Positions 7,881-42,521 of a stretch of 64,000 nt of DNA are shown one piece after another. Source of the stretch: Flavobacteriales bacterium (GTDB taxonomy: Bacteria; Bacteroidota; Bacteroidia; Flavobacteriales_F; PHOS-HE28); NCBI GenBank assembly GCA_024103275.1, contig JAGFIV010000037.1:1-64000 (forward strand), read 5' to 3'. How positions within the stretch are numbered: the stretch's first letter is position 1; every line of letters starts with the position of its first letter. The translations under genes and the position numbers were made by a program. The notes under the pieces were generated by a model. It was not told the DNA's origin, did no database searches, and worked only from the letters and a program-made list of their open reading frames with translations.

Positions 7881-7890
7881 GCGGAACGGA

Positions 7891-7917
7891 CAAGGCCGCC
7901 CGGAACAGGCGGCCTTG
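7891..7917 (-). terminator. Stem-loop after rpoD
   Basis: A 10-bp GC-rich inverted repeat (7891-7900 with 7908-7917) with a 7-nt loop lies about 25 bp past the rpoD stop on the minus strand. There is no T-tract, so the call is moderate. Confidence 0.5.
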
Positions 7918-7941
7918 CATGCGATCCCGCGGCCATTTCCC

Positions 7942-8811
7942 TTAATCGTTCAGGTAGGTGCGCAGGTCGCGGCCATGTCCCACGTGCTTGAGGCGGCGGA
8001 TGGCCTTTTCCTTGATCTGCCGGACGCGCTCCCGGGTCAGGTCGAATTTGCGCCCGATCTCTTCCAGGGTATGGGGCTGGTTGCCGCCAAGCCCGAAGTA
8101 CAGCCTGATCACGTCGCCTTCGCGCCCCGACAGGGTTTCCAGGGAGCGTTCGATCTCGGCCTTCAGGCTGTCGGTGAGCAGGCTTTCCATGGGGTCGGGC
8201 TGGTCGCGGTTGGCCATGGTATCGTGCATGGTCCCGCTGTCCCCGTCATCGCGCAGCGGCGCATCCATGCTCAGGTGGCGGCCCGTGTTGCCCATGCTGG
8301 CCTTCACCTCGTCCAGGGTCATCTCCAGCGTTTCGGCCAGCTCGGCCGCGGTGGGTGCCCGCTCGTGTTCCTGCTCGAGCCGGGCGAAGGCCTTGTTGAT
8401 CTTGTTGATGGAGCCGATCTTGTTCAGCGGCAGGCGCACAATGCGGGCTTGTTCGGCCAGGCTTTGCAGGATCTGCTGGCGGATCCACCACACGGCATAG
8501 CTGATGAACTTGAAACCGCGCGTCTCGTCGAAACGCGTGGCGGCCTTGATCAGGCCCAGGTTGCCCTCGCTGATCAGATCGGGGAGGGTAAGGCCCTGCC
8601 CTTGGTATTGCTTGGCCACGGAGACCACGAAGCGCAGGTTGGCCTTGCACAGGGTTTCCAGGGCCTCGGTGTCGCCTTGCTTGATCTTGCGGGCCAGTTC
8701 CACTTCCTCCTGGGCGGTGATCAGTTTCACCTTGCCGATCTCGGTGAGGTATTTGTCCAGCGACGGCGTGTCGCGGTTGGTGACCTGCTTGGAGATCTTC
8801 AGTTGACGCAT
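7942..8811 (-). CDS. rpoD: Primary RNA polymerase sigma factor (RpoD/SigA)
   Basis: This is the housekeeping sigma-70 factor. At 289 residues it is the short form typical of Bacteroidota, lacking most of region 1.1. Seen in order: region 1.2 ([12 protein letters not shown]), region 2 with [13 protein letters not shown] and [15 protein letters not shown] (-10 recognition and melting), region 3, and region 4 with the HTH stretch [21 protein letters not shown]. The start at 8811 (MRQLKISKQ) matches the family; an ATG 9 bp upstream is also possible. This factor is presumably the reader of the TAnnTTYG elements described here. Confidence 0.95.
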
Positions 8812-8926
8812 TCTAGCCATGATGCCCGGAGGGTTTCTTTCATTGGATCGGTGCTGTTCAACGCCGATGGGCGGCCTGCGGTTACGGGGGCATGGCGCGT
8901 GGATAGGCGCGCGGACCTGAAAGCGA

Positions 8927-8954
8927 AAGGGGCCGCCCCGGCGGGCGGCCCCTT
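8927..8954 (-). terminator. Terminator after pnp
   Basis: An 11-bp perfect GC-rich stem (8927-8937 with 8944-8954) with a 6-nt loop begins ~20 bp past the pnp stop. On the minus strand it ends in CCTT then TCGC, so the T-tract is weak. Confidence 0.6.
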
Positions 8955-8975
8955 CCATGCCGACGGGTGCGCGGC

Positions 8976-11207
8976 TTACCGGTCCTGGCGCGGCCCGTGT
9001 TCACGGCGCTCGCGGCGTTCGCGGTGCGGCCGGTCACCGTGGTTGCGTCGCTCGCCCCCGTTGTTCTCACGCTCCACGTAGCCCTCGGGCTTGGGCAGCA
9101 GCACCCGGCGGCTGAGCTTGAGCTTGCCGGTGCGCGGGTCCTTGTCCACCACCTGGAATTCGATCACGTCCCCTTCCTTGAGGACATCCTCCACCCGCTC
9201 CACGCGTTTCCAGTCCAGTTCGCTCACGTGCAGCAGGCCGTCGGTGCCGGGGAAGATCTCCACGAAGGCCCCGTAGGGCATGATGGTCTTCACCTTGCCC
9301 TTGTACGTGACGCCGATCTCCGCCGTCGGCGGGAAGGCGATGGCCTTCACCCGGGCGAGCGCGGCCTCCAGGCCATCCTTGTCCTCGCTGGTGATCTGCA
9401 CATGGCCGGACCCGTTCACCTCCTCGAGCACGATGGTGGTGTTGGTCTCGGCCTGGATCTCCTGGATCACGCGGCCGCCGGGGCCGATCACGGGCCCGAT
9501 GGCCTCCTTGGGGATCTCCAGGAAGACGATGCGCGGTGCGTTGGGCTTGTAGTCCGGGTTGGGCTTGTCCATGGTCTTCATCATCTCGCCCAGGATGTGC
9601 AGGCGGCCTGCACGCGCCTGCTCCAGCGCTTGGGCAAGCACCTCATAGCTCAGGCCGTCCACCTTCAGGTCCATCTGCGTGGCGGTGATGCCCTTGGAGG
9701 TGCCGGTCACCTTGAAGTCCATGTCGCCCAAGTGGTCCTCGTCACCGAGGATGTCGCTCAGGATGGCATACTTGCCGTCGGGATCGCTGATCATGCCCAT
9801 GGCGATGCCGCTGACCGGTGCCTTGATCTGCACGCCCCCGTCCATCAGGGCCAGGGTGCCGGAGCACACGGTGGCCATGGAGCTGGAGCCGTTGCTTTCC
9901 AGGATGTCGCAGTTCAGGCGGATGGCATAGGGACATTCGGCCTCGCTGGGCAGCACGGGCTTCAGGGCGCGCAGGGCCAGGTTGCCATGGCCGATCTCCC
10001 GCCTTCCCGGTCCGCGGATGGGGCGCACCTCACCGGTGCTGAAGGGCGGGAAGTTGTAGTGCAGCATGAACTTGTCATTGCGCTTCACCAGCGGCGTGTC
10101 CACGGTCTGCTCGTCCATCTTGGAGCCCAGGGTGAGCAGGTTGATCGCCTGGGTTTCGCCCCGGGTGAAGATGGCGCTGCCATGGGTGCCGGGGAGCACG
10201 CCCACCTCGCTCCAGATCGGGCGGATCTCATCGGTCTTGCGTCCGTCCAGGCGGATGCCCTTCTCCAGCACCACGCGCCGCACGGCTGCTTTCTGGGCCT
10301 TCTTGAAGTAGCGGTCCAGCATGGCCTTCTTGGCCACCTGCTCCTCGGCCAGGGTGGCGATGAACGCCTCCTTCACCTTGCCGAAGGCCTCGCTGCGCTC
10401 CTCCTTGCTGCTGGGATGCACGGCGATGTCGTAGTATTTCTGGAAGGTGGCGTCGTAGATGGCCTTTTGCAGCCCGGGATCGTTCTCCTCGTGGCTGTAC
10501 GTGCGCTTCACCAGGCTCTTGGGCACCTCGGCGGCCAGTTCACCGATCACCCGGCATTGGTCCTTGATGCTTTCATGGGCCAGCTTGATGGCCTCGATCA
10601 TTTCAGCCTCGGGCACCTCGTGCATTTCGCCCTCCACCATCAGGATGTCCTTGGCGGTGCCGGCCACGATCAGGTCCAGTTCGGCCCCGTCGAGCTGCTC
10701 GAAGGTGGGGTTGATCACCCAGGCATTGTCCTTGCGCACTACGCGCACCTCGCTCACCGGGCCGTGGAAGGGGATGTCGCTCACGGCGATGGCGGCGGCG
10801 CCGGCCAGGCAGGCCAGCGAATCGGCGGGGTTTTTCCGGTCGGAGCTGATCATGGACACCTGTACCTGGATGTCCCCGTGGAAATCATCGGGGAAGAGCG
10901 GGCGCAGGGCGCGGTCCACCAGGCGGCTCACCAGGATCTCCCCGTCGTGGGGCCTGTTTTCACGCTTGAAGAAACCGCCCGGGAAGCGGCCGGCGGCGCT
11001 GAATTTCTCACGGTATTCCACCTGCAAGGGGAGGAAGTCGATCCCCTCGCGGGCCTCCTTGGCGGCCACCACGGTGCCCAGCAGGATGGTGTCGCCGCAG
11101 CGCACGGTCACGGCGCCGTCGGCCTGTTTGGCCAGGATACCGGTCTCCAGGGTGATGGTCCTGCCATCGCCCAGGGTGATGGTCTTTTGTATTCCTTTTG
11201 GTTTCAT
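8976..11207 (-). CDS. pnp: Polyribonucleotide nucleotidyltransferase (PNPase)
   Basis: This phosphorolytic 3'-5' exoribonuclease works in RNA turnover. The 743-residue protein has two RNase PH domains (the first with [14 protein letters not shown], the second with [17 protein letters not shown]), a KH domain ([14 protein letters not shown]) and an S1 domain ([15 protein letters not shown]). The C terminus adds a basic, low-complexity RERRERRE-type tail, common in PNPases of this phylum. It lies just after rpsO, the conserved rpsO-pnp order, but an intrinsic terminator sits between them, so read-through or a separate promoter controls it. Confidence 0.97.
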
Positions 11208-11286
11208 CTTCTTCGGGCACGCCTTTCGTGCCTATTGTTTTGTTGGTTGTTCGTCCCTTTTTGGCCGGTGCCAGCCGCGATGAAAA

Positions 11287-11315
11287 AAGGGCGATCGTTC
11301 CTTACGATCGCCCTT
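11287..11315 (-). terminator. Intrinsic terminator between rpsO and pnp
   Basis: A perfect 12-bp stem (11287-11298 with 11304-11315), a 5-nt loop, and on the minus strand a run of six T immediately after the stem (bases 11283-11288 are A on the plus strand). It is well placed to end the rpsO transcript or limit read-through into pnp. Confidence 0.85.
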
Positions 11316-11367
11316 ATCGTCGGTCAATGATCGGTCCGTGTTTCGGCCATGGCGGCCACCACGGGGA

Positions 11368-11637
11368 TCACTTGCGGAGGCCCAGCTTGGCGATGATCGC
11401 GCGATACCGCTCGATCTCGTAGTGCTTCAAATAGGCGAGCAGCTGCTTGCGCTTGCCCACCAGGTCCAGCAGGGCGGTCTCCGTGCGGTGGTCCTTCTTG
11501 TTGTTCTTCAGGTGCCCGGTCAGGTGCTCGATCCGCTGGGTGAACAGCGCGATCTGTGCCTCAGCGCTTCCCGTGTTGGTCTCCGACCCGCCGTAGGTCT
11601 TGAAGATCTCCTTCTTGGCCTCTTTCGTTGCGATCAT
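11368..11637 (-). CDS. rpsO: 30S ribosomal protein S15
   Basis: S15 binds 16S rRNA and helps assemble the 30S platform. The 89-residue length and the motifs [44 protein letters not shown] and the [12 protein letters not shown] tail are typical. A TACATTCG -7 element lies at 11682-11689, leaving a leader of about 38 nt that could host autoregulation as in other bacteria, though no specific structure was identified. Confidence 0.97.
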
Positions 11638-11681
11638 GTTTTTCTGCCTCTATCCAACCACCCCTTTGGCGGTTGAGGGCG

Positions 11682-11689
11682 CGAATGTA
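11682..11689 (-). promoter_or_regulatory. -7 element TACATTCG of rpsO
   Basis: Matches TAnnTTYG. The inferred transcript start, about 6 bp downstream, gives an rpsO leader near 38 nt. Confidence 0.5.
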
Positions 11690-11774
11690 CGGTTTTTTGG
11701 CGGTCCAAGCCCCCAACCGGTCCCGCGACCTGGAAAAACGGTACCCGCCGCGCCTGGCAGCCCGCGCCCGGCCT

Positions 11775-13655
11775 TCACCGCACCAGGGTGACGTGGCCGG
11801 CATGGCTGGGCCCATCGGCCACCCGGAACACATAGTAGTAGGTCCCGTCCGGCAGGCCGGTGCCGTCCCATTGGTTCCGATAGTTGGTGGCGTGGAAGAC
11901 CACTTGGCCCCACCGGTTGTAAATGGACAGCTCGTTGTCCAGGTATTGCGCGTTCTCGATGTGGAAGCGGTCGTTCCGGCCGTCGCCGTTCGGGCTGAAG
12001 ACATTGGGGATCTCCACGTCCTCGGGTATGATCCAGTAGTGCAGGACGTAGCTGGCGGTACAGCCCTCCGCCGTGGTGAATGACAAGGACACCGCATGCA
12101 TGCCCGGCTGCGCATGCTCCCATTCCCAGGTCCCTCCGCCCGTTTGCACAACAAGGCCGTCCAGGGACCAGAAGGAGGGGTCCGGGGCCGTGGGGGAGCC
12201 CGGGGAAAGGTCGGTGAACAGGATGTCCGCGCCCATCGGTTGCGGGGATGGCGGATCGCCGACGATAAGCACGGTGGGCAGCGGATGGGTGATCACCGTG
12301 CCGGCGAAAGAGGCCGGGCATCCGTATTCCTCCACCGTCAAGGTCACCGTGTGCGGCCCGTTTTCGCTGAAGACCACCTCCACGACCGGCCCGGTGGCCG
12401 AGGAAGGGGTGGCCTGCGGCCCCAGGTCCCAGCTGTAGGAGGCGTCCGGCCCGGCCTGGCCCAAGGCGGTCAAGGTGGTTGCAAGGCTTCCGCAGGCCGG
12501 CCCGGGCACATCGAAGTAGGGCACGGGGGCCTCGCCCAGTGAGAAAATGGCCTGCGTCGTATCGGCGCATACCGCGCCCGGGTTGGCGATCAGGGTGACG
12601 GTGTAAGTGCCGAACCCGGGATAGGTCCAGGTGGGATTCTGCCCGGAGGACACGTCTTCATCGGTGGTGGGGTCGCCAAAGTCCCAGTACCAGGTTTGCC
12701 CGCCGCTGCTGGCATTGGTGAAGTTCACGGTAAGGTTCCCGTCGCATCCGCCGGTTTGGGTTGCGATGCCCGCATTGACGACCGCGTTGCAGGCCACCAC
12801 GGAGAACAGGAAGTCACGGATCGTTTCGGAGAGCAGCACGCCATTGCGGTATTCCTTGACGCTCAAGGCGATTACGTAGTTCCCCACGGAGGTGGGGTGT
12901 ACGGTGAGCACGCCGGAGGCCTGGTCGATGGCCAACGGCGGCGAGGAGTTGATCTGGAAATCGCCGTTGTAGCCAGGTGCCCAGGTCACGGGGGTGTAGG
13001 GCGGCGGGGTGGACATGTTGGGGTAGGGCACGGCGCTGCTGCCACCGGTATAGGGGGTGGCCAAGGCGTACACGAGCTGGTCGCCATCGGGGTCGGTGGC
13101 CGAATGGTCGAACACCAGCGGCTCATCCAGGCACAAGGCCACCGGCGGCAGCTGGTTGAAGCGTGGCGAACTGTTCACCTGGTCCGGTGCCGGGGGGATC
13201 CGTGTGGTGCAGGTGAGCCCGGTGGACCCGGGGTTAAACAGGTTCATCACGCTCGACTGGCGGCAGCAGCGCTGGTAGCTGATGTGGTACCCGGTGGCAT
13301 TGGGAGGCAGGGTGACGGTGCCGATGTAGGAGGTGGTCTCGATGCACAGGTTCGGGGGCAGGTTCAGGCAAGGGCTGTCGAGCACCACGGGGACGAATGT
13401 GCTTCCGGGGTAGTTGATGTACAGCACATTGATCAAGTTGTTGGCCCCGTCGTAAATGGTGACGTTGCCCAAGGGATCGAATGCGGCCCCGGTACCGTGG
13501 CAATCGCGGTAGAGGGTGAGGGTGATCTGGTATTGGTTGCTGCCCAGGTAGTCGTAGTAGATCTCCCCGCCGATGATGTGCTCCGCATGCACCTGCACGG
13601 TCATGCCCAAAAGGATGCCCAGCACCGTGAGCCCCCATTTCCGAAAGGTCGCCAT
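11775..13655 (-). CDS. Gliding-motility-associated (T9SS type B) PKD-repeat protein
   Basis: The 626-residue protein is probably exported by T9SS and attached to or released from the cell surface. It has a signal peptide (GLTVLGILLGMTVQVHA), a conserved N-terminal domain starting EHIIGGEIYYDYLG, then PKD-type beta-sandwich modules (WYWDFGDPTTDE, YSWDLGPQATP) and the type B C-terminal domain (IPNVFSPNGDGRND ... LSIYNRWGQVVF ... DGTYYYVF). No enzyme domain is seen. Role unknown; adhesins of this architecture are frequent in the phylum. TATTTTTA sits just before the ATG. Confidence 0.85.
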   Translation of the reverse strand: MATFRKWGLTVLGILLGMTVQVHAEHIIGGEIYYDYLGSNQYQITLTLYRDCHGTGAAFDPLGNVTIYDGANNLINVLYINYPGSTFVPVVLDSPCLNLPPNLCIETTSYIGTVTLPPNATGYHISYQRCCRQSSVMNLFNPGSTGLTCTTRIPPAPDQVNSSPRFNQLPPVALCLDEPLVFDHSATDPDGDQLVYALATPYTGGSSAVPYPNMSTPPPYTPVTWAPGYNGDFQINSSPPLAIDQASGVLTVHPTSVGNYVIALSVKEYRNGVLLSETIRDFLFSVVACNAVVNAGIATQTGGCDGNLTVNFTNASSGGQTWYWDFGDPTTDEDVSSGQNPTWTYPGFGTYTVTLIANPGAVCADTTQAIFSLGEAPVPYFDVPGPACGSLATTLTALGQAGPDASYSWDLGPQATPSSATGPVVEVVFSENGPHTVTLTVEEYGCPASFAGTVITHPLPTVLIVGDPPSPQPMGADILFTDLSPGSPTAPDPSFWSLDGLVVQTGGGTWEWEHAQPGMHAVSLSFTTAEGCTASYVLHYWIIPEDVEIPNVFSPNGDGRNDRFHIENAQYLDNELSIYNRWGQVVFHATNYRNQWDGTGLPDGTYYYVFRVADGPSHAGHVTLVR

Positions 13656-13830
13656 GGGCTAAAAATAGCAGGTGCGGCCCCATCCTGGCCACCGCTCGGT
13701 CAGGTTCGCCGCTTTTTCACGCCATTCCCGACCCCCTGAATATCTCCCTTTCCGGGTTTGCGCCGCGGAAGGCGTGGCCGGAATCGTGGCGCCGGGACAA
13801 GGATACGGGCCCCCGCAAGGGCGGACCGGC

Positions 13831-14676
13831 TCAACTCCTGAACATCAGGAAGGTCTTCGCAAGGAAATCCTTCAGGTCTTTGCGCTCCACGATCTTGTCC
13901 AGGAAGCCGTGTTCCAGCACGAATTCGCTGCGCTGGAAGCCTTCGGGCAGGTCGTGTCCGATGGTTTCGCGCACCACGCGGGGCCCGGCAAAGGCCACCA
14001 GGGCCTTTGGCTCGGCGATGTTGAGGTCGCCCAGCATGGCGAAGCTGGCGGTGACGCCCCCGGTGGTGGGGTCGGTGAGCAGGCTGATGAAGGGGATCCC
14101 TTTCTTGCCCAGCAGGCTGAGCTTGGCGCTGGTCTTGGCCATTTGCATCAGGCTGAAGCCGGCCTCCATCATGCGGGCGCCGCCGCTTTTGCTGATCACC
14201 AGCAAGGGGCACTTGCGCCGCATGGCCGTATCCGCCGCCATGGCCACCTTCTCGCCCACCACGCTGCCCATGCTGCCGCCGATGAAGTTGAAATCCATGC
14301 ACGCGATCACCACGTCCTCCTTGGCCAATTTTCCGTAGGCCGTGCGGATGGCATCGTTCAGGCCCGTTTTCTTCCGGGTTTCCGTCAGGCGGTCGGTGTA
14401 CTTCTTCGTGTCCTCGAAGCCCAAGGGGTCACCGGCCACCAGGTCGGCACCGATCTCCTTGAACTTGCCGTCGTCGAACAGGATCTGGAAGTACTCCGCG
14501 CTCCCCACGCGCTCGTGGTGGCCGCACTTGGCGCATACCCAAAGATTTTTTGCGTGGTCATCGGAGGTCATGATCTCCGAGCACTCCGGGCATTTGTACC
14601 AAAGCCCTTCGGGCGTTTCCTTTTTCTCCTCGGTGGAGGTGGTGATGCCCTGCTTGACGCGTGTGAACCAACCCAT
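13831..14676 (-). CDS. accD: Acetyl-CoA carboxylase carboxyltransferase subunit beta
   Basis: It transfers the carboxyl group from biotin to acetyl-CoA, giving malonyl-CoA for fatty acid synthesis. The 281-residue protein has the N-terminal zinc ribbon (CPEC ... CAKC), the crotonase-fold segment GSMGSVVGEKVA, and SGGARMMEAGFSLMQM, followed by TDPTTGGVTASFAMLGD. The start at 14676 (MGWFTRVKQGI) is the usual AccD start. GATCTTTG lies 9 bp upstream. It stands alone; accA is not in the window. Confidence 0.95.
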   Translation of the reverse strand: MGWFTRVKQGITTSTEEKKETPEGLWYKCPECSEIMTSDDHAKNLWVCAKCGHHERVGSAEYFQILFDDGKFKEIGADLVAGDPLGFEDTKKYTDRLTETRKKTGLNDAIRTAYGKLAKEDVVIACMDFNFIGGSMGSVVGEKVAMAADTAMRRKCPLLVISKSGGARMMEAGFSLMQMAKTSAKLSLLGKKGIPFISLLTDPTTGGVTASFAMLGDLNIAEPKALVAFAGPRVVRETIGHDLPEGFQRSEFVLEHGFLDKIVERKDLKDFLAKTFLMFRS

Positions 14677-34245: not shown

Positions 34246-34310
34246 CCCGCCACCGCCCTAGCCACGCGCCCGCCGTCCATGGCCGCGCTGACAATGCCGC
34301 CCGCGTAGCC
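34246..34310 (-). pseudogene. Copied 3' tail of the FAD-oxidoreductase gene
   Basis: These 65 bases match 36782-36846, the last ~21 codons of the intact oxidoreductase gene, in the same orientation with 2 mismatches. In translation it reads AGYAGGIVSAAMDGG then RVARAVAG, but continues past the normal stop. Upstream similarity fades (ENAGY against EGAGY). It is a remnant, not a gene, and forms a direct repeat around the 34443-36632 gene. Confidence 0.8.
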
Positions 34311-34442
34311 GGCATTTTCCCGCAAGTGTGCCGCATGGGCAGCACGAGCCAGGGAGTGACTTGTGGCCTGAAGGCTCCCAATCCTTGCAGGCAATGAAGG
34401 CTGATCGCCAACCTGCGATTGATGAACTCCTCCTTCTCGCCG

Positions 34443-36632
34443 CTACTCCTTGATCCACCGCAGTACCACGGGGGAGGTTTCTCCGGTAAGGCGGATGATA
34501 TATGCGCCGGGTTTCAATTCGGACGTAACCACCGGGGTGGATGTGGATGTGATGGGAAAACGCTTTACCACTCGACCGGTCATGTCCATGAACCAGGCTT
34601 CCATGGATTTCCCGCCTATGCCGGGGCCGGTCAGCACCAACGCATCGTGCCCGGGGTTCGGATGGATACCCCACGTTCCTGTGATCGGAGGCCCGTCGAT
34701 CCCATCTAAGATCACGCTCGAACAACCCACCGCGATGTGGTACATGTTGTTCGCGGGGTCTAAAGGATTGGCAAGAAGTGGCAGGTAATACGTTCCTTGG
34801 AGAAGCCAGTATTCATCGTTCGCATTACCGTTGGAACAAGGGAAATAGAGGGACGGCATGCCAAACAGGAGCGAGTCCGCGCCGCACTCCGTGGCAAGGA
34901 ATCCCATGGATCCAGGCCAGGCCGTATCCTGACCGCAATAGGAGACCGTGAACGTGTAACAGTATTCCGGAATTTCCACGGCATACCAGGCCACCGCGCT
35001 GTCCTGCCATGCGGTACCGGCAAGGTGGTCGCCGTTGGGGGTAATGCCGGCCAAGCTTCCTTGAAGTTCCACATAACCGTCGATGGGAACCGGGACCATC
35101 GGGGCATCCAGGCATGCATCCGTTGCCGCTCCCACATTCTTGTATGAAAGCGTGTATGCCTCACCCTGCCATCCATCCCCATGGATCCGCAGGTAAACAG
35201 CCCCGGTGTATACCGCCATGAACGTCCAGGTCCTTGCCCCGGAGTTGAGGCTGTAGGTGGGGATGTCCATGATGTTGCATGCCGAATCATAGGCCTCCAT
35301 CATCGGCGCAAGGTCATCCCACCAGTTGCAATCGGTGCATTCCAGTTGGAAGGCGTAGGTCATCCCTGCGGCCACATTGACCTTGTACACCCGGCAGCCA
35401 TATTCGAGGAAGCTGGAATCCGACGATTGCCATTGAAGCGTTGGGGTGATCTCCAGGTCGTGGTCCGGGCAGGTGGGACAAGTGCCATGCCGCCGACGGG
35501 CCAACGTGTAGTTGCCCCCGGCGCCGTCAATGCCGGATACCCGCAGGAACAAGGGCCATTCACCGGCTGAGGTGAATTCCAGCGTGGACGAGCCGTCGCC
35601 GCACTGGTCGGTGCCAGTGAGCAGCACGTTGCACGAATCATTGAGCAGTTCCAGTTGTGCATTGTGGTCACAGGATGCCCCATCGCCGCAGCCGATCTTG
35701 TAGGAGTATACATAGCCTTCCTCCTGGACAAGTCGGTACACTTGGCATCCGCCAGGTAGATAACTGCCGGCAACCGTGGCCCAGTACCAGCCCGCGCTGA
35801 GGTTGGCATCGTGGTTCGTGCAACTGCCGCATGCGCTTCCATTGCCCCCTGAGCGGCGGTAGGCCATGGAGAAGTTTCCCGCTTCACCGGAGGCTCCCGC
35901 CACCCGCACGAAGATGGTGCCGGCCTCCGTGGCGGTCCAGGTGATGGAGGATCGCCCGGCTTCGCAAGCATTGTCGTTTGATGCCAACTCGTTGCAATAG
36001 ACATTCGAGATGCTGATCCGGGTATCGTGGTCGGCGGTGGCCCCGTCTCCGCATCCCGTCTTGAAATCATAGGTCAGGCCGTTGGCCACGGAAACCTTGT
36101 ACACCTTGCATCCGTCGATCCCGTAGCTCCCATCAACAGTTTGCCAATAGCTGCCGGGGGCCAGGGCTTCATCGAAGGATGGACATTCGTTGCAGTTGCC
36201 GGCCATGCCCCCGATAGAACGATAGGCGAGGGTGAAACTGCCTCCTTCCCCGTTCGCACCGCGAACACGGATCCGCGAGGGACCTTCCCACACCACGAAG
36301 TTGATGTCCAATTCGGTGCCACCTGGAGCGCAACTGCCACTGTCGGCCATCACAAGCAGGCAGGGGGGTGGTGTGCGGTATTCCAGCACGGTGTTATGGT
36401 CCGCCCATGCGCCGTCGCCGCAGCCGGTCTTGAACACATAGGTGATGGAATTGCTTTGCAGCAGGGGGAGTTCATAGGTTACGGAACCACCGGGCGGATA
36501 GCTGCCCGAGATCCATTGCCACGAATCCAAGGCATCCGGAATGGTAATGGCGTCAACAGTGCACGTATCCTGGGCCAGCGTGGCGAAGGAGGTTGCAAAA
36601 AGCACGAAGGCCAAGGCGGACAATTTTTCCAT
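34443..36632 (-). CDS. T9SS-secreted protein with four ~120-residue Cys/Gly repeats
   Basis: The 729-residue secreted protein has a signal peptide (LSALAFVLFATSFATLAQ), four related modules spaced by about 120 residues, and a T9SS sorting domain (NPGHDALVLTG ... PGAYIIRLTG ... LRWIKE). Each module has a Gly-Cys-Gly-Asp-Gly core (KTGCGDGATADHDT in the second), an aromatic W-x-S start and an IRVRGANGEGG / FVRVAGASGEAG strand, resembling pre-peptidase C-terminal type beta sandwiches. No enzymatic motif is seen. The gene looks less GC-rich than its surroundings and is flanked by direct repeats of the adjacent gene's 3' end. Confidence 0.8.
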   Translation of the reverse strand: MEKLSALAFVLFATSFATLAQDTCTVDAITIPDALDSWQWISGSYPPGGSVTYELPLLQSNSITYVFKTGCGDGAWADHNTVLEYRTPPPCLLVMADSGSCAPGGTELDINFVVWEGPSRIRVRGANGEGGSFTLAYRSIGGMAGNCNECPSFDEALAPGSYWQTVDGSYGIDGCKVYKVSVANGLTYDFKTGCGDGATADHDTRISISNVYCNELASNDNACEAGRSSITWTATEAGTIFVRVAGASGEAGNFSMAYRRSGGNGSACGSCTNHDANLSAGWYWATVAGSYLPGGCQVYRLVQEEGYVYSYKIGCGDGASCDHNAQLELLNDSCNVLLTGTDQCGDGSSTLEFTSAGEWPLFLRVSGIDGAGGNYTLARRRHGTCPTCPDHDLEITPTLQWQSSDSSFLEYGCRVYKVNVAAGMTYAFQLECTDCNWWDDLAPMMEAYDSACNIMDIPTYSLNSGARTWTFMAVYTGAVYLRIHGDGWQGEAYTLSYKNVGAATDACLDAPMVPVPIDGYVELQGSLAGITPNGDHLAGTAWQDSAVAWYAVEIPEYCYTFTVSYCGQDTAWPGSMGFLATECGADSLLFGMPSLYFPCSNGNANDEYWLLQGTYYLPLLANPLDPANNMYHIAVGCSSVILDGIDGPPITGTWGIHPNPGHDALVLTGPGIGGKSMEAWFMDMTGRVVKRFPITSTSTPVVTSELKPGAYIIRLTGETSPVVLRWIKE

Positions 36633-36777: not shown

Positions 36778-38310
36778 TCAACCCGCCACCGCCCTTGCCA
36801 CGCGCCCGCCGTCCATGGCCGCGCTGACGATGCCGCCCGCGTAGCCCGCGCCCTCGGCGCAGGGGTAGAGGCCGCGCACCTGCGGGTGTTGCAACGTGTG
36901 CGGGTCGCGCGGGATGCGCACGGGCGAGCTGGTGCGGCTTTCCACGGCCACCAGCACGGCCTCGTTGGTGCGGTAGCCGCGCATCTTCTCGCCGAAGGCC
37001 TTCAGGCCGCCGCGCAGGCGCCCGGCTACTTCCGGCGGCAGCACCTCGTCCAGTAGGGCAGGCACGATGCCCGGCGGATAGCTGCATGCGGGCAGGTCGG
37101 CGCTGGCCTTGCGGCGGATGAAATCCTCCAGGCGTTGCGCGGGTGCCGATTGGCGTTCTCCACCAGCGCGCCAGGCGGTTCGCTCCGCACGTTGCTGCCA
37201 GCGCAGTGCGCTCAGCGGGTCGTCCGCTTGGCGCGGGTCCACCGCCACCACGATGCCGCTGTTGGCGAACGGGTTGTTGCGTTTGCTCGGGCTCCAGCCG
37301 TTGGTCACCACCTCGCCGGGCGCGGTGGCGCACGGGGCGATGATGCCGCCGGGGCACATGCAGAAGCTGTACACGCCGCAGCCGTCCACCTGCTGCACCA
37401 CGCTGTAGCTGGCGGGCGGCAAGGCCGGGTGGCGCACCGCGCTGTGGTAGCGGATGCGGTCGATCACCGCCTGCGGATGCTCGATGCGCACGCCCAGCGC
37501 GAAGGGTTTGGCCTCGATCAGGATGCCCCGGCGGTGCAGCAGCTCGAAGATGTCGCGTGCCGAGTGGCCGGTGGCCAGGATCACGCGGTCGGCCAGCACC
37601 TCCTCGCCTTGCGCGGTGCGCACCCCGTGGATGGCGCCGTCGGCGATGATGAGGTCGGTGACGCGCGTGCTGAAGCGCACCTCGCCGCCCGCCGCGATGA
37701 TGGCCTCGCGCATGGCGGTGATGATGTGCGGCAGCTTGTTGGTGCCGATGTGCGGGTGCGCCTCGATCAGGATGTCCGGCGAGGCCCCGAAGGCCACGAA
37801 GGTCTCCAGGATGCCCTCCACGTCGCCGCGCTTGTGGCTGCGGGTGTAGAGCTTGCCGTCGCTGTAGGTGCCCGCGCCGCCCTCGCCGAAGCCGTAGTTG
37901 CTGTCGGGATCCACGATGTGCAGGCGGTTCACGGCGGCCAGGTCGCGGCGGCGGGCGCGCACGTCCTTGCCGCGCTCCAAGATGATGGGCCGCAGCCCGT
38001 GGCGGATGCACTCCAGCGCGGCGAACAGCCCGGCCGGCCCGCAGCCCACGATGATCACGGCTTTGCCCTTGCGCACGTCGGGCAGTTCGGGCGGCGTTTG
38101 GCGGGGCTCCGGGAATGCCTGCTCCGTGGAAAGTTCCACGCGCAGTCGCACCAAGGGCTGCTTGCTCCGCGCATCGATGCTGCGCTTCACCACGCGGCAG
38201 CCCTGCACGTGCGCCGGGTCCATGCCGGCCGCTTCCGCCGCGGCCTCACGGACCAGCACGGGGTCCGCCGCCTCGGTCGGACGTAGGGCGATGTCGATGG
38301 TGAGATGCAT
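36778..38310 (-). CDS. FAD-dependent NAD(P)/FAD oxidoreductase
   Basis: The 510-residue flavoprotein has a small N-terminal domain (residues 1-80), a dinucleotide-binding motif IIVGCGPAGLFAALE, a second nucleotide region (DRVILATGHSARDIFELL) and a C-terminal FAD loop (GAGYAGGIVSAAMDGGRVA). It belongs to the widespread uncharacterised FAD-dependent dehydrogenase group that resembles HI0933/GG-reductase proteins; substrate unknown. The last 65 coding bases, excluding the stop, are repeated at 34246-34310. Confidence 0.8.
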   Translation of the reverse strand: MHLTIDIALRPTEAADPVLVREAAAEAAGMDPAHVQGCRVVKRSIDARSKQPLVRLRVELSTEQAFPEPRQTPPELPDVRKGKAVIIVGCGPAGLFAALECIRHGLRPIILERGKDVRARRRDLAAVNRLHIVDPDSNYGFGEGGAGTYSDGKLYTRSHKRGDVEGILETFVAFGASPDILIEAHPHIGTNKLPHIITAMREAIIAAGGEVRFSTRVTDLIIADGAIHGVRTAQGEEVLADRVILATGHSARDIFELLHRRGILIEAKPFALGVRIEHPQAVIDRIRYHSAVRHPALPPASYSVVQQVDGCGVYSFCMCPGGIIAPCATAPGEVVTNGWSPSKRNNPFANSGIVVAVDPRQADDPLSALRWQQRAERTAWRAGGERQSAPAQRLEDFIRRKASADLPACSYPPGIVPALLDEVLPPEVAGRLRGGLKAFGEKMRGYRTNEAVLVAVESRTSSPVRIPRDPHTLQHPQVRGLYPCAEGAGYAGGIVSAAMDGGRVARAVAG

Positions 38311-38319
38311 GGGGAGGCA

Positions 38320-38395
38320 AGAGGTAGTTGCAGTAGGCAGTGGCAGTGGTCAGTTGCAGTTGGCAGTTCTCGGTTCTCGGTAATCAGTTATCAGT
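38320..38395. repeat. Degenerate CAGT-rich short repeats
   Basis: A string of imperfect 6-7 bp units (GCAGTAG, GCAGTGG, GTCAGTT, GGCAGTT, then TCTCGGT twice and ATCAGTT / ATCAGTC) fills the space upstream of the oxidoreductase gene. The rest of the gap to 38546 shows only a small CCGAC/GTCGG hairpin at 38508-38521 and no gene. Confidence 0.6.
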
Positions 38396-38546: not shown

Positions 38547-38720
38547 TCAACCTGCGTTCATTCGTAAGGGCCAAAGAACAAAAAGTACACAGGTGAAACG
38601 GACAAAACCGTTGACCCGGCCATCACCAACCGCCTCCATCACCATCGCGCTTTCCGAGCTCATGGGCCGGTCGGCCAGCCAAACGTTCAAGGGAACGTTT
38701 GCATCGATCAGGATGCGCAT
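38547..38720 (-). pseudogene. Truncated PIN-domain toxin (VapC-like)
   Basis: The reading frame starts MRILIDANVPLNVWL and continues ESAMVMEAVGDGRVNGF, a typical PIN toxin N terminus with the first catalytic Asp (residue 6) and the helix-2 Glu region, then turns into unrelated sequence and stops after 57 codons; normal length is about 130-140. The catalytic Asp residues of the C-terminal half are missing. Its ATG overlaps the antitoxin stop (TGATG), the usual toxin-antitoxin coupling. Inactive toxin inferred. Confidence 0.7.
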
Positions 38721-39016
38721 CAGCTGGCGTGCTTGCGAAGGAGGTAGCCCAGCAGGTCGTCCCGATCAAAATCCGCTTTGCTGAACTTCCCTTTCAGTAC
38801 CCCGCGATTGGCCTTCACCCATGCCTTGCCCTTGCCGGGCCCCACATCCAGCATGGGCTCTTCGGGCATCGCGGCGATCAGGTCATCAAGCACCGCACCC
38901 ATGCTTCGTTGTTGCAACTCGCTGGCACGGCGCAGCCGCTTTTTGCTTGCCACGCTGATCGAGGTGCTGAGCCGGCTCTGTCGGACAGGCTTTCGCTTGG
39001 TGACCTTTGCCTTCAT
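38720..39016 (-). CDS. Antitoxin-like protein paired with the truncated PIN toxin
   Basis: The 98-residue basic protein has a helix-rich N-terminal half (TSISVASKKRLRRASELQQRSMGAVLDDLIAAM) suggestive of a ribbon-helix-helix DNA-binding antitoxin and a C-terminal toxin-binding tail (LKGKFSKADFDRDDLLGYLLRKH), much like DUF6364-type antitoxins. The start at 39016 was preferred over GTG at 39022 because a TATCTTCG -7 element ends 6 bp upstream of it. It is intact although its toxin is not. Confidence 0.65.
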   Translation of the reverse strand: MKAKVTKRKPVRQSRLSTSISVASKKRLRRASELQQRSMGAVLDDLIAAMPEEPMLDVGPGKGKAWVKANRGVLKGKFSKADFDRDDLLGYLLRKHAS

Positions 39017-39021
39017 GATCA

Positions 39022-39029
39022 CGAAGATA
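39022..39029 (-). promoter_or_regulatory. -7 element TATCTTCG of the antitoxin gene
   Basis: Its last G is 6 bp from the ATG at 39016, implying a leaderless toxin-antitoxin transcript. Confidence 0.5.
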
Positions 39030-39055: not shown

Positions 39056-39102
39056 CCGCTACCCCTCAAACGTGAAGGTGAGCACCCAGGTCTTGGTGCG
39101 CA
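39056..39102 (-). repeat. Copied 3' tail of the PorT-like gene (direct repeat with 41790-41836)
   Basis: 47 bases identical to 41790-41836 except one, in the same orientation. They cover the last ~14 codons, the stop and 3 bp beyond of the PorT-like gene (tail TKTWVLTFTFEG then stop). No gene uses this copy. Together the two copies bracket the 39127-41758 gene pair. Confidence 0.85.
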
Positions 39103-39126
39103 GACTTCAGGCAGGAACGATAGTCT

Positions 39127-40635
39127 CTATTGCTTTACCCACTTACCTGAAGCACGCAACGTGCCATTGTGACCTGTGACCCGGTAGTAGTACAAGCCGG
39201 GTGCAAGGGAGGTACAAACTAAATGGCCCGTAGCTCCATTCATTACTGCATTGGCTGTCACATGGCCTTGCATGTCGTATAGTGTAATCCGAGTGCCGGG
39301 TTCGCTTGAACCATTCAGGACCACAGTGAAACCCGCATTTCCTGGATTAGGGAAAATCAAGGTTTGTCCAGGATTGGAGGATTCGGGGATACCTACGTTG
39401 CAATCGGCTGCGCTGAATGTTTGCGCCCAGCCCACAAACCGGCTGTTTGGATCACTCATGTCCTTCTTGGTGCCTACAATGGCGAATCCACCGTTGGGGG
39501 TGGTCTTGATCCGGATCGGCACGTAATAGGTATTGGAGGCAAACCCATCCAGCACGAAGTCACACAGGATGTTCAGTTGGTTGTCCAGCTTGTACACATG
39601 CAGCACGTCGGGTTCGGTCGGTTCAAAAGGGATGTTTTCGGCAGACAAGGGGAAGTTTTCCCAGAATAGGAAGTAGAACGATGAAGAGTCAATGGGACTG
39701 ATGCACCCATCCAGCGCTGCGTAGTCGTTGTTGAACTGACTGTATGGAATGAATGCCGCAGAGGTCACGCCCGTGGTGTCCACTACATATACGGCACCAT
39801 TATAGCGCGGGCTCCCTACCTTGAATACACCTCCAACAACGAAACTGCTGTTATCAATCGGCCGTAGTGTCATCGGCCCTTTCACAATGCTGTCCAAAGG
39901 GTTCAGTGGGTCGTAATGCGGTGCTTGCCCGGACCAGTAAGTTGTGAGGTTCAAGTCCAGGGTTATCTTGCCATAGTACGCTGGTGTCTGCGGCCAGCTC
40001 TCGAAGGAAGCAAGCAGCCCATTATTGAAAGGAACAATGTCGCGCGTAACTTGAAGGATACTACCAGGTAAACTGAATCCATTATTGGAAACAACCTGCC
40101 CATCGGCGTTTATCCTGAATAGCTGGGAGTAGTTCAATAGATTGGCGCTCCCAAAGGCAGCTGATCCGGCAGCAACTACGGATCCATCTTCGAGCAAGGC
40201 TGCATTTTTCAGGCTCGTGAACCTTGCTCCATTAATCGGAATGAATGTGGAGTCCGGCAAAGGGTTATCCGGGGTGAACTTATAATGGAAGAAACCGGGA
40301 AGGGAATCACCATATTCTGCATAGCTCCCCAACACCCGTACACCCTGGGTGGACCCGGCAAGAACAACTGTTGGAACAGCGTGGTGTAGGGATGGGGCCA
40401 ATTGGCGCTCATGCAGCAGGTTCCCTGAAGTGTTTAGAACCAGGATTGATGCACCAAAGGGGAATGATACCAACGGGGTGGCCCTATAGCAGCCGACCAC
40501 GACACTATCATCAGACCAAGCTATGTCGGTAAAGAGAACATCTTTGTCGACCTGGCCTTGGCCATAAGTCCAAGGTTGCTGCCCCATGGCCACAACAGTA
40601 GCCATGGGGAGCAATATTGTCCATATGCGCTGCAT
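39127..40635 (-). CDS. T9SS-secreted protein, probable beta-propeller
   Basis: The 502-residue secreted protein has a signal peptide (MQRIWTILLPMATVVAMGQQ) and repeated short strands of the type LLEDGSVVAAGSAAFG and TPNGGFAIVGTKKD, as in quinoprotein/FG-GAP-like propellers. It ends in a T9SS sorting domain (FPNPGNAGFTVVLNG ... PGLYYYRVTG ... GKWVKQ). The start at 40635 is 1 bp after the stop of the upstream lipoprotein gene, so the two form an operon. Composition looks more AT-rich than flanking genes. Function unknown. Confidence 0.75.
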   Translation of the reverse strand: MQRIWTILLPMATVVAMGQQPWTYGQGQVDKDVLFTDIAWSDDSVVVGCYRATPLVSFPFGASILVLNTSGNLLHERQLAPSLHHAVPTVVLAGSTQGVRVLGSYAEYGDSLPGFFHYKFTPDNPLPDSTFIPINGARFTSLKNAALLEDGSVVAAGSAAFGSANLLNYSQLFRINADGQVVSNNGFSLPGSILQVTRDIVPFNNGLLASFESWPQTPAYYGKITLDLNLTTYWSGQAPHYDPLNPLDSIVKGPMTLRPIDNSSFVVGGVFKVGSPRYNGAVYVVDTTGVTSAAFIPYSQFNNDYAALDGCISPIDSSSFYFLFWENFPLSAENIPFEPTEPDVLHVYKLDNQLNILCDFVLDGFASNTYYVPIRIKTTPNGGFAIVGTKKDMSDPNSRFVGWAQTFSAADCNVGIPESSNPGQTLIFPNPGNAGFTVVLNGSSEPGTRITLYDMQGHVTANAVMNGATGHLVCTSLAPGLYYYRVTGHNGTLRASGKWVKQ

Positions 40636-40636
40636 T

Positions 40637-41758
40637 CTAATGTGCTTTGGCCAACTTGCCATAGCGGTATGTAACCCAATGCAATCTGACTTGATGACCG
40701 CCGAGAGACATGTCTCCTTGCACCTTGCACGAAGCGGCTACCTTGTTCGGCAAATAGTTTGCAGGGACGTATTGCATCAAGTTCCACACGCCTTGGGTGT
40801 AAAAACTCATATCTACTGGCCCGAGGCAGCTATTGCTAGGGTCACCGATATAGACTGGGAAGTCCCTAATACCATCCCCGTTGATTGGGTTGTCAGGTCC
40901 AACTGGCGATGGATGACTTAATAGTCCAAGCACACGATTAGACGGATCATCATAGCCCCAGTGATCTACTTCCCACGTTTCCACATCGGTGTAGTATTGG
41001 TAGTAGCCCCCATTGATGGCATAGTTAACTCTGTTCCGGATTTGCCTGTCAGCACAAGCCCCCCAGATAGTATTGTCTTGGCAATTGCAATACTGCGGGT
41101 CTGACTCTATATTCATCCACCACCAATGGTCGTTGGGGCCGTAGTTTGTGTTGGGTGTACCCCTGTCGTACCCGCTGCAAATCAAGTAAACCGTGGAAAG
41201 CCGTAGGCTATTCCCCTCCACGCTTGGTACTACGTCCACTATGGAAACATGACTGGTGCCTTCCACATTTGCGACATTGATTTGTTGGCCCAATGTGAGG
41301 AACATGTCACCCGCTTCTCCGACCAATACATGGCCGTCAACCACAGGAATCGTCACGATGATGCTGTCTTCAGTTTGGTCAGTGTACTTTTGGGCAATAT
41401 TGGTATAGCTTAAATTCAGCGCGGCCTCAATATACCAGACCGCACTGTCCACGGTCAACGATTCCCCCTCGCGGCTCCCTGAGCCGCGTTCAGCCAGGTT
41501 GATAAACGAAATCACCCGGGGTGTTACATTCACCTCGGGTGCAGGTGAAGCTTGGCTATTGGCTATTTCCTCCTTTTGGCAACTCGATAGGCCGAATATC
41601 ATCATTAGGCTCAATGCACCGGTCAGTGAAACCAGCAGACCGGGCCTACGCCGTGCCGTCCGTTGCGTTGCGTTGCGTTGCGTTGCGTTGCGTTGCGTTG
41701 CATGTAAATATGGTTTTGGGTTGGATACAAGTATATCACGTTTGTACGAGAAATCCAT
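40637..41758 (-). CDS. Putative lipoprotein with a pentanucleotide repeat in its signal region
   Basis: The 373-residue reading frame has a hydrophobic stretch and lipobox (LMMIFGLSSC) about 60 residues from the ATG at 41758, preceded by an unusual ATQRN-repeat encoded by eight CGTTG (plus-strand) units. The mature part has Trp/Tyr-rich segments (DHWWWMNIES, GGYYQYYTDVETW) and several cysteines, no known domain. A second ATG at 41703, immediately before the repeat, is out of frame with eight units but in frame with seven or ten. Which start is used is uncertain. Confidence 0.6.
   Translation of the reverse strand: MDFSYKRDILVSNPKPYLHATQRNATQRNATQRTARRRPGLLVSLTGALSLMMIFGLSSCQKEEIANSQASPAPEVNVTPRVISFINLAERGSGSREGESLTVDSAVWYIEAALNLSYTNIAQKYTDQTEDSIIVTIPVVDGHVLVGEAGDMFLTLGQQINVANVEGTSHVSIVDVVPSVEGNSLRLSTVYLICSGYDRGTPNTNYGPNDHWWWMNIESDPQYCNCQDNTIWGACADRQIRNRVNYAINGGYYQYYTDVETWEVDHWGYDDPSNRVLGLLSHPSPVGPDNPINGDGIRDFPVYIGDPSNSCLGPVDMSFYTQGVWNLMQYVPANYLPNKVAASCKVQGDMSLGGHQVRLHWVTYRYGKLAKAH
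41661..41700. repeat. Pentanucleotide microsatellite, 8 x CGTTG
   Basis: Eight perfect units, 40 bp, inside the lipoprotein's 5' coding region. The unit length is not a multiple of three, so slippage shifts the reading frame. This is the classic layout of a phase-variable gene. Confidence 0.9.
41728..41735 (-). promoter_or_regulatory. -7-like element TATACTTG before the repeat
   Basis: One mismatch to TAnnTTTG. A transcript from here would start near 41722, so only the ATG at 41703 would be available and expression would depend on the repeat number. Confidence 0.35.
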
Positions 41759-41767
41759 GTAGTGCCG

Positions 41768-41786
41768 AGTGGAAAAGTTTTCCACT
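41768..41786. repeat. Perfect 19-bp palindrome at the edge of the second duplicated segment
   Basis: Arms AGTGGAAAA and TTTTCCACT with a single G between them, ending 3 bp before the gene-tail repeat at 41790. The loop is too short for a good terminator; a protein-binding or recombination site is possible. No second copy was noticed at the other end of the segment. Confidence 0.6.
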
Positions 41787-41789
41787 ATC

Positions 41790-41836
41790 CCGCTACCCCT
41801 CAAACGTGAAGGTGAGCACCCACGTCTTGGTGCGCA
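41790..41836 (-). repeat. Original gene-tail copy of the direct repeat (partner of 39056-39102)
   Basis: The 3' end, stop codon and 3 bp beyond of the PorT-like gene, repeated 2,734 bp away with one mismatch. Confidence 0.85.
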
Positions 41837-42521
41837 AGCTTTGGATGGGCCTGCTGAAGCGGGTGCCGTCATCGACGTGCACGTTGGGGATGCCGATGCC
41901 TGTTTTGAGCTCGATGCCGAACTTGAAGTAGGGGAGGAACATGTCCACGCCGCCGCCCACTTCTGCGCCGTAGTCGTATTTGCTCAGCTTCACCACCACA
42001 TCCTCGTCCAAGGCGTTGTCCACATCCTTCTGGCTGGCCATGTCGATGCCGAACTTCCCGCCGCCGATCAGGTAGACCGCGAAGTTGTTGATGCGGTCGC
42101 TGCGGAATTTCAGCAGCAGCGGGAACTCCAGGTAGGTGCTTTCGATCGGCTTCTGGAAGTTGGCCGTCTTGCCGTCGGGTTTGCGGAAGGAATACTTCAG
42201 GATGCGGTCCTGGAAAGCGAGCGTGGGCAGGAAGCGCAGGCTGAGGTTGTTGGTCATGTTCAGCGAGGCCACGATGCCGAGGTTGAAGCCGGGCTGCTTC
42301 ACGTGGTCCATCACCAGCAGCGAATCCTGGAACGGGGCCGTGGGCCTCAGCCGCGTATAGAAATCCGCGGTGTTGTAGCTGAGGAGGAACCCGAAATGGA
42401 AGGTGCGCAGATCGAAGTTGGGCAGGTTTTCCACCTTCACGCCGCGCGCCCGCTGGGCCTGTGCGGGCCGGGCCTGCAGCGCCATCAGGACGGGAACGAG
42501 GAGGAGGGCGGCCTTGCGCAT
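41793..42521 (-). CDS. PorT-family outer-membrane beta-barrel protein
   Basis: The 242-residue protein has a signal peptide (AALLLVPVLMALQARPAQAQ) and the PorT layout: an N-terminal FDLRTFHFGFLLSYNTADF segment, YLEFPLLLKFRSDRINNFAVYLIGGGKFGID and a C-terminal strand TWVLTFTFEG. PorT is an outer-membrane protein needed for T9SS function in Porphyromonas, so this may be a secretion component, though paralogs of unknown role are common. The start at 42521 follows TACATTCG by 13 bp. Confidence 0.8.
   Translation of the reverse strand: MRKAALLLVPVLMALQARPAQAQRARGVKVENLPNFDLRTFHFGFLLSYNTADFYTRLRPTAPFQDSLLVMDHVKQPGFNLGIVASLNMTNNLSLRFLPTLAFQDRILKYSFRKPDGKTANFQKPIESTYLEFPLLLKFRSDRINNFAVYLIGGGKFGIDMASQKDVDNALDEDVVVKLSKYDYGAEVGGGVDMFLPYFKFGIELKTGIGIPNVHVDDGTRFSRPIQSLRTKTWVLTFTFEG

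Follow-up and report, generated by a model that had tools for sequence, protein, structure and literature searches.

Lipoprotein and type IX-secreted protein genes inserted between copies of gene ends behind porT and its neighbour in a Flavobacteriales genome

The 64,000-nucleotide stretch analysed here (the window: positions 1 to 64,000 of contig JAGFIV010000037.1, designated C124, from Flavobacteriales bacterium assembly GCA_024103275.1, designated G000) carries two segments in which genes for secreted proteins lie between direct repeats copied from the end of a neighbouring gene. At site A, a lipoprotein-like gene and a gene for a protein of the type IX secretion system (T9SS) have been inserted between porT and the gene of a flavin adenine dinucleotide (FAD)-dependent protein, its ancestral neighbour. 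At site B, behind the FAD gene itself, the cargo is a single T9SS gene. The explanation favoured here for site A, held with moderate confidence, is that a horizontally acquired lipoprotein and T9SS gene pair entered by a single crossover of a circularised fragment. The following features, all on the minus strand, define the two sites:

41793-42521, minus strand: target gene porT (PorT/SprT, type IX secretion system; NF052311)
41790-41841, minus strand: gene-side repeat copy, found by repeat search (last 15 or so porT codons, stop codon and 3 bp beyond; PorT identity by NCBIfam)
40637-41703, minus strand: site A cargo, lipoprotein-like protein of no known family (lipobox LSSC, read by eye)
39127-40635, minus strand: site A cargo, secreted protein with a T9SS type A sorting domain, a divergent allele (TIGR04183, 44 bits)
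39056-39107, minus strand: second (orphan) copy of the porT end, beyond the cargo
36778-38310, minus strand: gene of the FAD-dependent protein (PF21688), which borders site A on the right and is the target at site B
36782-36849, minus strand: site B, gene-side copy of the FAD-gene end
34443-36632, minus strand: site B cargo, 729-aa protein with a T9SS type A sorting domain
34246-34313, minus strand: orphan copy at site B; the native FAD-uspA junction comes next, as it does in genome G032

The original prediction, made from the sequence of the window, had placed a copy of the porT tail at 39056-39102 with a lipoprotein gene and a T9SS gene between it and porT, and both statements hold. The repeat core (39056-39102 and 41790-41836) measures 47 bp with one mismatch and extends to 52 nt at 94% identity, with a spacing of 2,734 bp (BLAST E about 1e-17). 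The porT open reading frame (ORF) encodes a true PorT/SprT protein, scoring 192 bits against NF052311 with a cut-off of 125. The second case reported 5 kb away was likewise recovered as a direct repeat of 65-68 bp at 96-97% identity, spaced 2,536 bp apart (E about 2e-26). Coincidence had been judged less likely, and chance was indeed ruled out, as none of 40 Markov-shuffled versions of a 20-kb region contained a direct repeat of at least 40 bp at 90% identity or more. One further repeat of that class occurs in the window (144-211 and 504-571) and is internal to a protein gene. A paralogous porT or FAD pseudogene was also ruled out, since similarity breaks off abruptly at both borders.

The genome (3.58 Mb, 137 contigs, 1.7% contamination) belongs to a genus of Flavobacteriales known from metagenome-assembled genomes, and one genome per species was compared, so that all differences described below are between species and not between strains. 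About 26 congeners have the FAD gene next to porT, with gaps of 5-220 bp, and both window segments are therefore insertions. Only in G000, G002 and G028 is this gap filled by homologous lipoprotein and T9SS genes. In G022, porT is followed by a block of more than 10 kb (GH20-like, DUF1016-like, M1 peptidase and T9SS protein genes, named by eye) and the FAD gene lies on another contig. Behind the FAD gene, crp follows directly in three genomes (G028, G019 and G031) and uspA in G032, while the 729-aa T9SS gene is found in G000, G002 and G022 and a T9SS array in G004. Given these varied contents, both sites represent insertion hotspots. The original prediction had named a gene order conserved in distant relatives among the outcomes that would refute it, none of which applies; instead, empty sites were found in most of the genus.

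Among the porT and FAD loci scanned, gene-end repeats were present only in G000, at both sites, and in G004, where a FAD-end repeat of 187 bp at 99.5% identity accompanies T9SS cargo. This assembly consists of four contigs, and the recurrence of the pattern in it and in several other assemblies, together with copies that are not exact, makes an artefact assembled from strain mixtures in the metagenome bin hardly credible, even with the contig number and contamination of G000. The G004 insert (L062:7126-16700) is an array of T9SS paralogues spaced 1.7-2.2 kb apart with heptamer repeats (CCTGTGG)n. Additionally, a tandem repeat of the 13-mer AGGCAGTTGCAGT is located upstream of the window's FAD gene (38322-38368), and similar GTTGTCAGTT repeats occupy the porT-FAD gap in G004 and G031.

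The relationships of the cargo disagree with those of its flanks. The site A T9SS proteins of G002, G028 and G013 are 59-62% alike, whereas that of G000 reaches only 45-49% to each of them; the FAD gene of G000, in contrast, is 90% identical to that of G002 and about 81% to the others. At site B the order is reversed, as the 729-aa cargo is closer to G022 (63.5%) than to G002 (57%) and the flank is closest to G002. The cargo therefore entered G000 separately from that of its relatives, in agreement with repeat copies that are nearly identical (1/47 and 3/68 differences). Since 21.5% of the four-fold sites in the FAD gene differ between G000 and G002, the repeats are much younger than the split of these two genomes. 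Judged by this conflict of sequence relationships, the cargo is a horizontal acquisition, and the exchange of genes that had been claimed stands in this form. The alternative that the cargo was ancestral at the site, with a tandem duplication of gene end plus cargo followed by loss of one cargo copy, draws on the homologous cargo without repeats at the porT site of G002 and G028 and on tandem lipoprotein and T9SS pairs in G024. It is nevertheless very improbable, because the G000 cargo is not the sister of that in G002, no cargo remnant lies beyond the orphan copy and a clean insertion exists in the genome pair described below. The G024 pairs (L135:8264-13704; 2.7-kb unit, 91%) belong to the same cargo family, which is amplified there at another site.

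The claimed richness in AT was also confirmed: the GC content is 0.511 for the lipoprotein gene and 0.515 for the T9SS gene of site A, compared with 0.61 for the porT ORF and 0.715 for the FAD gene. For 55 other T9SS genes of G000 the median is 0.616 and none is as low as 0.515; the site B cargo, at 0.59, is in the normal range for T9SS genes. Copying from elsewhere in the genome was ruled out, as G000 contains no second copy of the cargo. A search for phage or plasmid cargo gave no match of the lipoprotein in plasmids or viral contigs and none of the T9SS protein in phages. No Pfam or NCBIfam family matched the lipoprotein-like ORF, and its homologues occur at various sites in 13 of 45 congeneric genomes.

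A precise empty site is provided by G013 and G022. The first of these genomes carries, inside an M1-peptidase locus, the same lipoprotein and T9SS family (57% and 49% against the proteins of the window); in the second this locus is uninterrupted: G013 5652-9823 matches G022 7881-12052 at 97%, and G013 12687-15469 matches G022 11642-14424 at 93%. About 411 bp from the 5' part of the M1-peptidase gene are therefore single in G022 and double in G013, where they surround the cargo. The left copy in G013 resembles G022 up to about position 305 and diverges afterwards, while the right copy starts out divergent and resembles G022 from about 310 onward, for about 100 bp. Exactly such a reciprocal mosaic is expected when a circle recombines with the chromosome by a single crossover. 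The two copies thus have the appearance of reciprocal crossover products, and the coinciding switch points in their sequences are suggestive, not proof. The copies at the hydrolase, FAD and mfd loci of G000 and at the mfd locus of G019, some of which are introduced below, were uninformative in the same comparison or swamped by decay of the orphan copy. The block of more than 10 kb directly behind porT in G022 has a counterpart at another genomic place in G013 (L068:7881-18400 and L131), with up to 99% identity, against only 77-86% for three core genes of the two genomes.

Further cases were sought in about 0.8 Mb of G000, about a quarter of the genome and biased to T9SS genes. Three were found: a duplicated alpha/beta-hydrolase end (L163; 109 bp, 96%) with AT-rich T9SS cargo on the opposite strand, a duplicated end of mfd (L158; 148 bp, 88%) with an AAA_14/DUF4143 ATPase of a PADLOC candidate-defence family, and a duplication of 61 bp upstream of an acid-phosphatase-like gene (L150, contig C33) with T9SS cargo. 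No new case emerged from a further 393 kb of G000, again sampled around T9SS genes, and five candidates (L148, L156, L159, L296 and L135) were discarded as tandem repeats or paralogues. In relatives, mfd was the recurrent target. G019 has two displaced mfd ends (293 and 114 bp) with methylase, HATPase, RhuM and PIN genes between; G023 has a 164-bp end duplication at 98% around a 650-bp insert that contains only higB-higA (L401:2256-2904), a minimal and recent case; G006 has a 55-bp end repeat with PIN and HTH genes as cargo; and G059 has a 95-bp end repeat. The recurrence that had been predicted is therefore real, with further cases in G000, G004, G013, G019, G023, G006 and G059. A specificity for secreted proteins, which had also been claimed, was not sustained, as the mfd inserts carry higBA, PIN toxin-antitoxin, methyltransferase or ATPase genes. 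The duplication of a gene's tail proved usual and not general: in G013 the 5' part of a gene is duplicated and in contig C33 of G000 an upstream region. The mfd 3' end (L400, L401, L402, L410 and L158) represents a hotspot for toxin-antitoxin, methyltransferase and candidate-defence genes, and the displaced ends at these loci differ in age.

The sequence of the gene ends indicates which copy came with the insert. The working mfd of G019 ends in VVGVKESA-stop, as in the distant G066 (VVGVKESV-stop), with sequence common to both genomes for 63 bp beyond the stop codon, while both displaced copies retain ALESVVA-stop and the downstream sequence of the nearer relatives G004 and G006. In G023, the mfd gene ends in EGVVGGPVVTDAIR-stop and the displaced copy in ESVVGVKAEV-stop. 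The displaced FAD ends of G004 and G000 retain the native junction to crp or uspA. Donor-type ends on the genes and native ends in the displaced copies imply that a new gene end arrives with the insert and displaces the old one.

The borders of the repeats are asymmetric. Relative to the stop codon, the downstream borders are at +3 (porT), -4 and about -8 (FAD), about -2 (hydrolase) and, for mfd, at 0, -31 (both G019 copies, counted once), -31, -15 and -19, so that all nine 3'-end cases fall within -31 to +3 bp of it. The upstream borders at mfd are scattered over six different positions (-323, -194, -146, -144, -113 and -69). Breaks staggered far apart and filled in while a foreign fragment is trapped would give a true long target-site duplication unrelated to homology. 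Copies that are usually nearly identical and native-looking agree with such a process, as do lengths from 47 to 411 bp and the use of a 5' end and an upstream region. It is judged improbable, because nine of nine downstream borders near the stop codon would, given the lengths of the intergenic regions, arise with a chance below 1e-3 (a rough estimate, with no formal model), the last codons come from the insert and are common to another species (G019 and G066), and the G013 copies differ in ancestry.

The repeated use of the same targets in many species, mfd above all, and the replacement of the target's end by the element's own version could also point to a site-specific recombinase that acts in trans on attachment sites in gene 3' ends, in the manner of genomic islands inserted by tyrosine recombinases at tRNA genes or icd. 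Such islands restore the 3' end of the target, and the native end is displaced. The cases described here are alike in this restoration and in the native end on the far side, and they differ in having no recombinase or fixed core, variable length and several unrelated targets. Among the cargo proteins scanned, no recombinase, integrase or transposase family was detected; the six mfd upstream borders leave no fixed attachment core for a given gene; and the targets are unrelated genes, a 5' end included. A recombinase in trans is accordingly a still more doubtful explanation than staggered breaks. The long, variable duplications also differ from the transposase and fixed short target duplication of a transposon or insertion sequence.

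Any process that explains these facts has to combine homology stopping at the gene end with a random border on the other side, do without an enzyme carried in the insert and preserve the old end. In the single-crossover reading, DNA of a donor strain with the cargo pair directly behind its own porT would enter the cell, and a fragment consisting of the end of porT and the cargo would be shortened by trimming and circularised through end joining. One homologous crossover within the porT end would then integrate the circle without an integrase, leaving an intact porT with the donor's end, the cargo and the displaced native porT end in this order. Trimming would set the variable repeat length, the repeat would end where homology ends, at the stop codon beside the cargo, and the same repeat could later let the cargo loop out. 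A precedent exists in E. coli, where a molecule composed of a gene end and a marker led to gene-end duplication in 56 of 60 recombinants, with duplications of 109-950 bp in those sequenced, attributed to partial degradation and re-circularisation of the molecule followed by a single crossover (PMC3240628). The likeness to the present cases lies in a duplicated gene end of variable length without an integrase; the difference is that those assays used laboratory plasmid transfer (PMC3240628), whereas here the process is proposed from genome comparison.

The same assays addressed homology-facilitated illegitimate recombination (HFIR), a linear one-sided integration in which homologous recombination at the gene end is combined with an illegitimate join upstream and the stretch between is duplicated. 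HFIR would account for variable upstream borders, for borders where homology ends and for the donor-derived last codons next to upstream copies that both look native in G019 and G023. As described, it usually deletes recipient DNA (about 1 kb) and does not duplicate it (PMC3240628), whereas duplication is found here. It also does not predict the donor-like start of the displaced copy seen in G013, and we regard it as unlikely.

Several observations weigh against the single crossover of a circle. Only G013 shows a clear reciprocal mosaic, G019 having no clean one, and the right flank in G013 shows further alternating recombination patches, so that coincidence is possible. The copies at the window sites differ by only 1-3 bases, too few for a mosaic test, and both porT copies of G000 carry a TGG codon that is absent from eight relatives, which requires a donor strain very close to G000. 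Moreover, no repeat accompanies the homologous cargo behind porT in G002 and G028, and neither a free circle nor an excision product was seen. ComEC and DprA are encoded, but both occur in most bacteria and are no proof of competence. More broadly, and tentatively, gene ends might serve as reusable landing pads, with circularised fragments of gene end and cargo moving from strain to strain and entering and leaving chromosomes through single crossovers of the RecA type. Such traffic would need no dedicated enzyme and would be a main route for swapping T9SS-secreted surface proteins, lipoproteins and toxin-antitoxin or defence genes.

The arrangement had been called undescribed, which does not hold. 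To our knowledge, the mechanism of such insertions has not been settled since they were proposed from genome comparison in 2000. According to papers citing the original work, through which its cases are known here, 'insertion with long target duplication' was named by Nobusato, Uchiyama, Ohashi and Kobayashi (2000) from two H. pylori strains, often for restriction-modification genes (PMC1643837), and 'long and variable target duplications' are stated for all types of restriction-modification systems (PMC3031569). As far as these accounts go, both sets of cases involve small blocks without a transposase, variable long direct repeats (47-411 bp over the twelve repeat pairs here) and a target that is single in a related genome. 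The toxin-antitoxin and DNA methyltransferase cargo at mfd is a further likeness; this cargo comprises a C-5 methylase, toxin-antitoxin genes and the candidate-defence ATPase, and restriction-modification genes are absent from the window. The difference is that the earlier cases mostly concern restriction-modification genes, while T9SS proteins and lipoproteins are also carried here. Gene-end borders and the swap of last codons are documented for the present cases.

Swapping of cassettes between conserved genes is, in addition, known as the minimal mobile element of Neisseria (Saunders and Snyder), described in the source consulted as a region between two conserved genes with cassettes that differ by strain (PMC3082526). 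Different whole-gene cassettes between two conserved genes are found at both porT-FAD and FAD-uspA/crp, and the porT-FAD site fits, but between species and not strains. The definition given in that source does not include gene-end direct repeats (PMC3082526), and what may indicate homologous recombination through the flanks, a feature of these elements, is here the mosaic of the G013 copies only. The finding thus belongs to a known kind of insertion, as a new member with secreted-protein cargo and unusually good evidence on mechanism. As the cases in this genus differ in age and include a precise empty site, displaced native ends and mosaic copies, the mechanism becomes testable across strains. 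The cargo extends beyond selfish restriction genes, and the conserved insertion sites behind porT, the FAD gene and mfd point to turnover of secreted-protein and defence genes.

One further feature, missed in the original prediction, sits between the orphan porT repeat and the FAD gene:

38600-39022 (about), minus strand: antitoxin-like ORF (38720-39022) and truncated PIN-like toxin remnant, from the sequence read by eye

Neither the antitoxin-like ORF nor the PIN-like remnant had a match in the libraries scanned. This toxin-antitoxin remnant may be part of the site A insert or of an earlier one, and toxin-antitoxin genes or remnants adjoin several of the gene-end repeats.

The start of the lipoprotein gene contains a perfect (CAACG)8 repeat (41661-41703) directly behind an ATG, which is out of frame with the lipoprotein at eight CAACG units and would be in frame at seven or ten. 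From this arrangement, the cargo lipoprotein is probably a surface lipoprotein that is phase-variable through slipped-strand changes. An ATG-(CACAG)n sequence occupies the same place in the lipoprotein homologues of G028 and G002.

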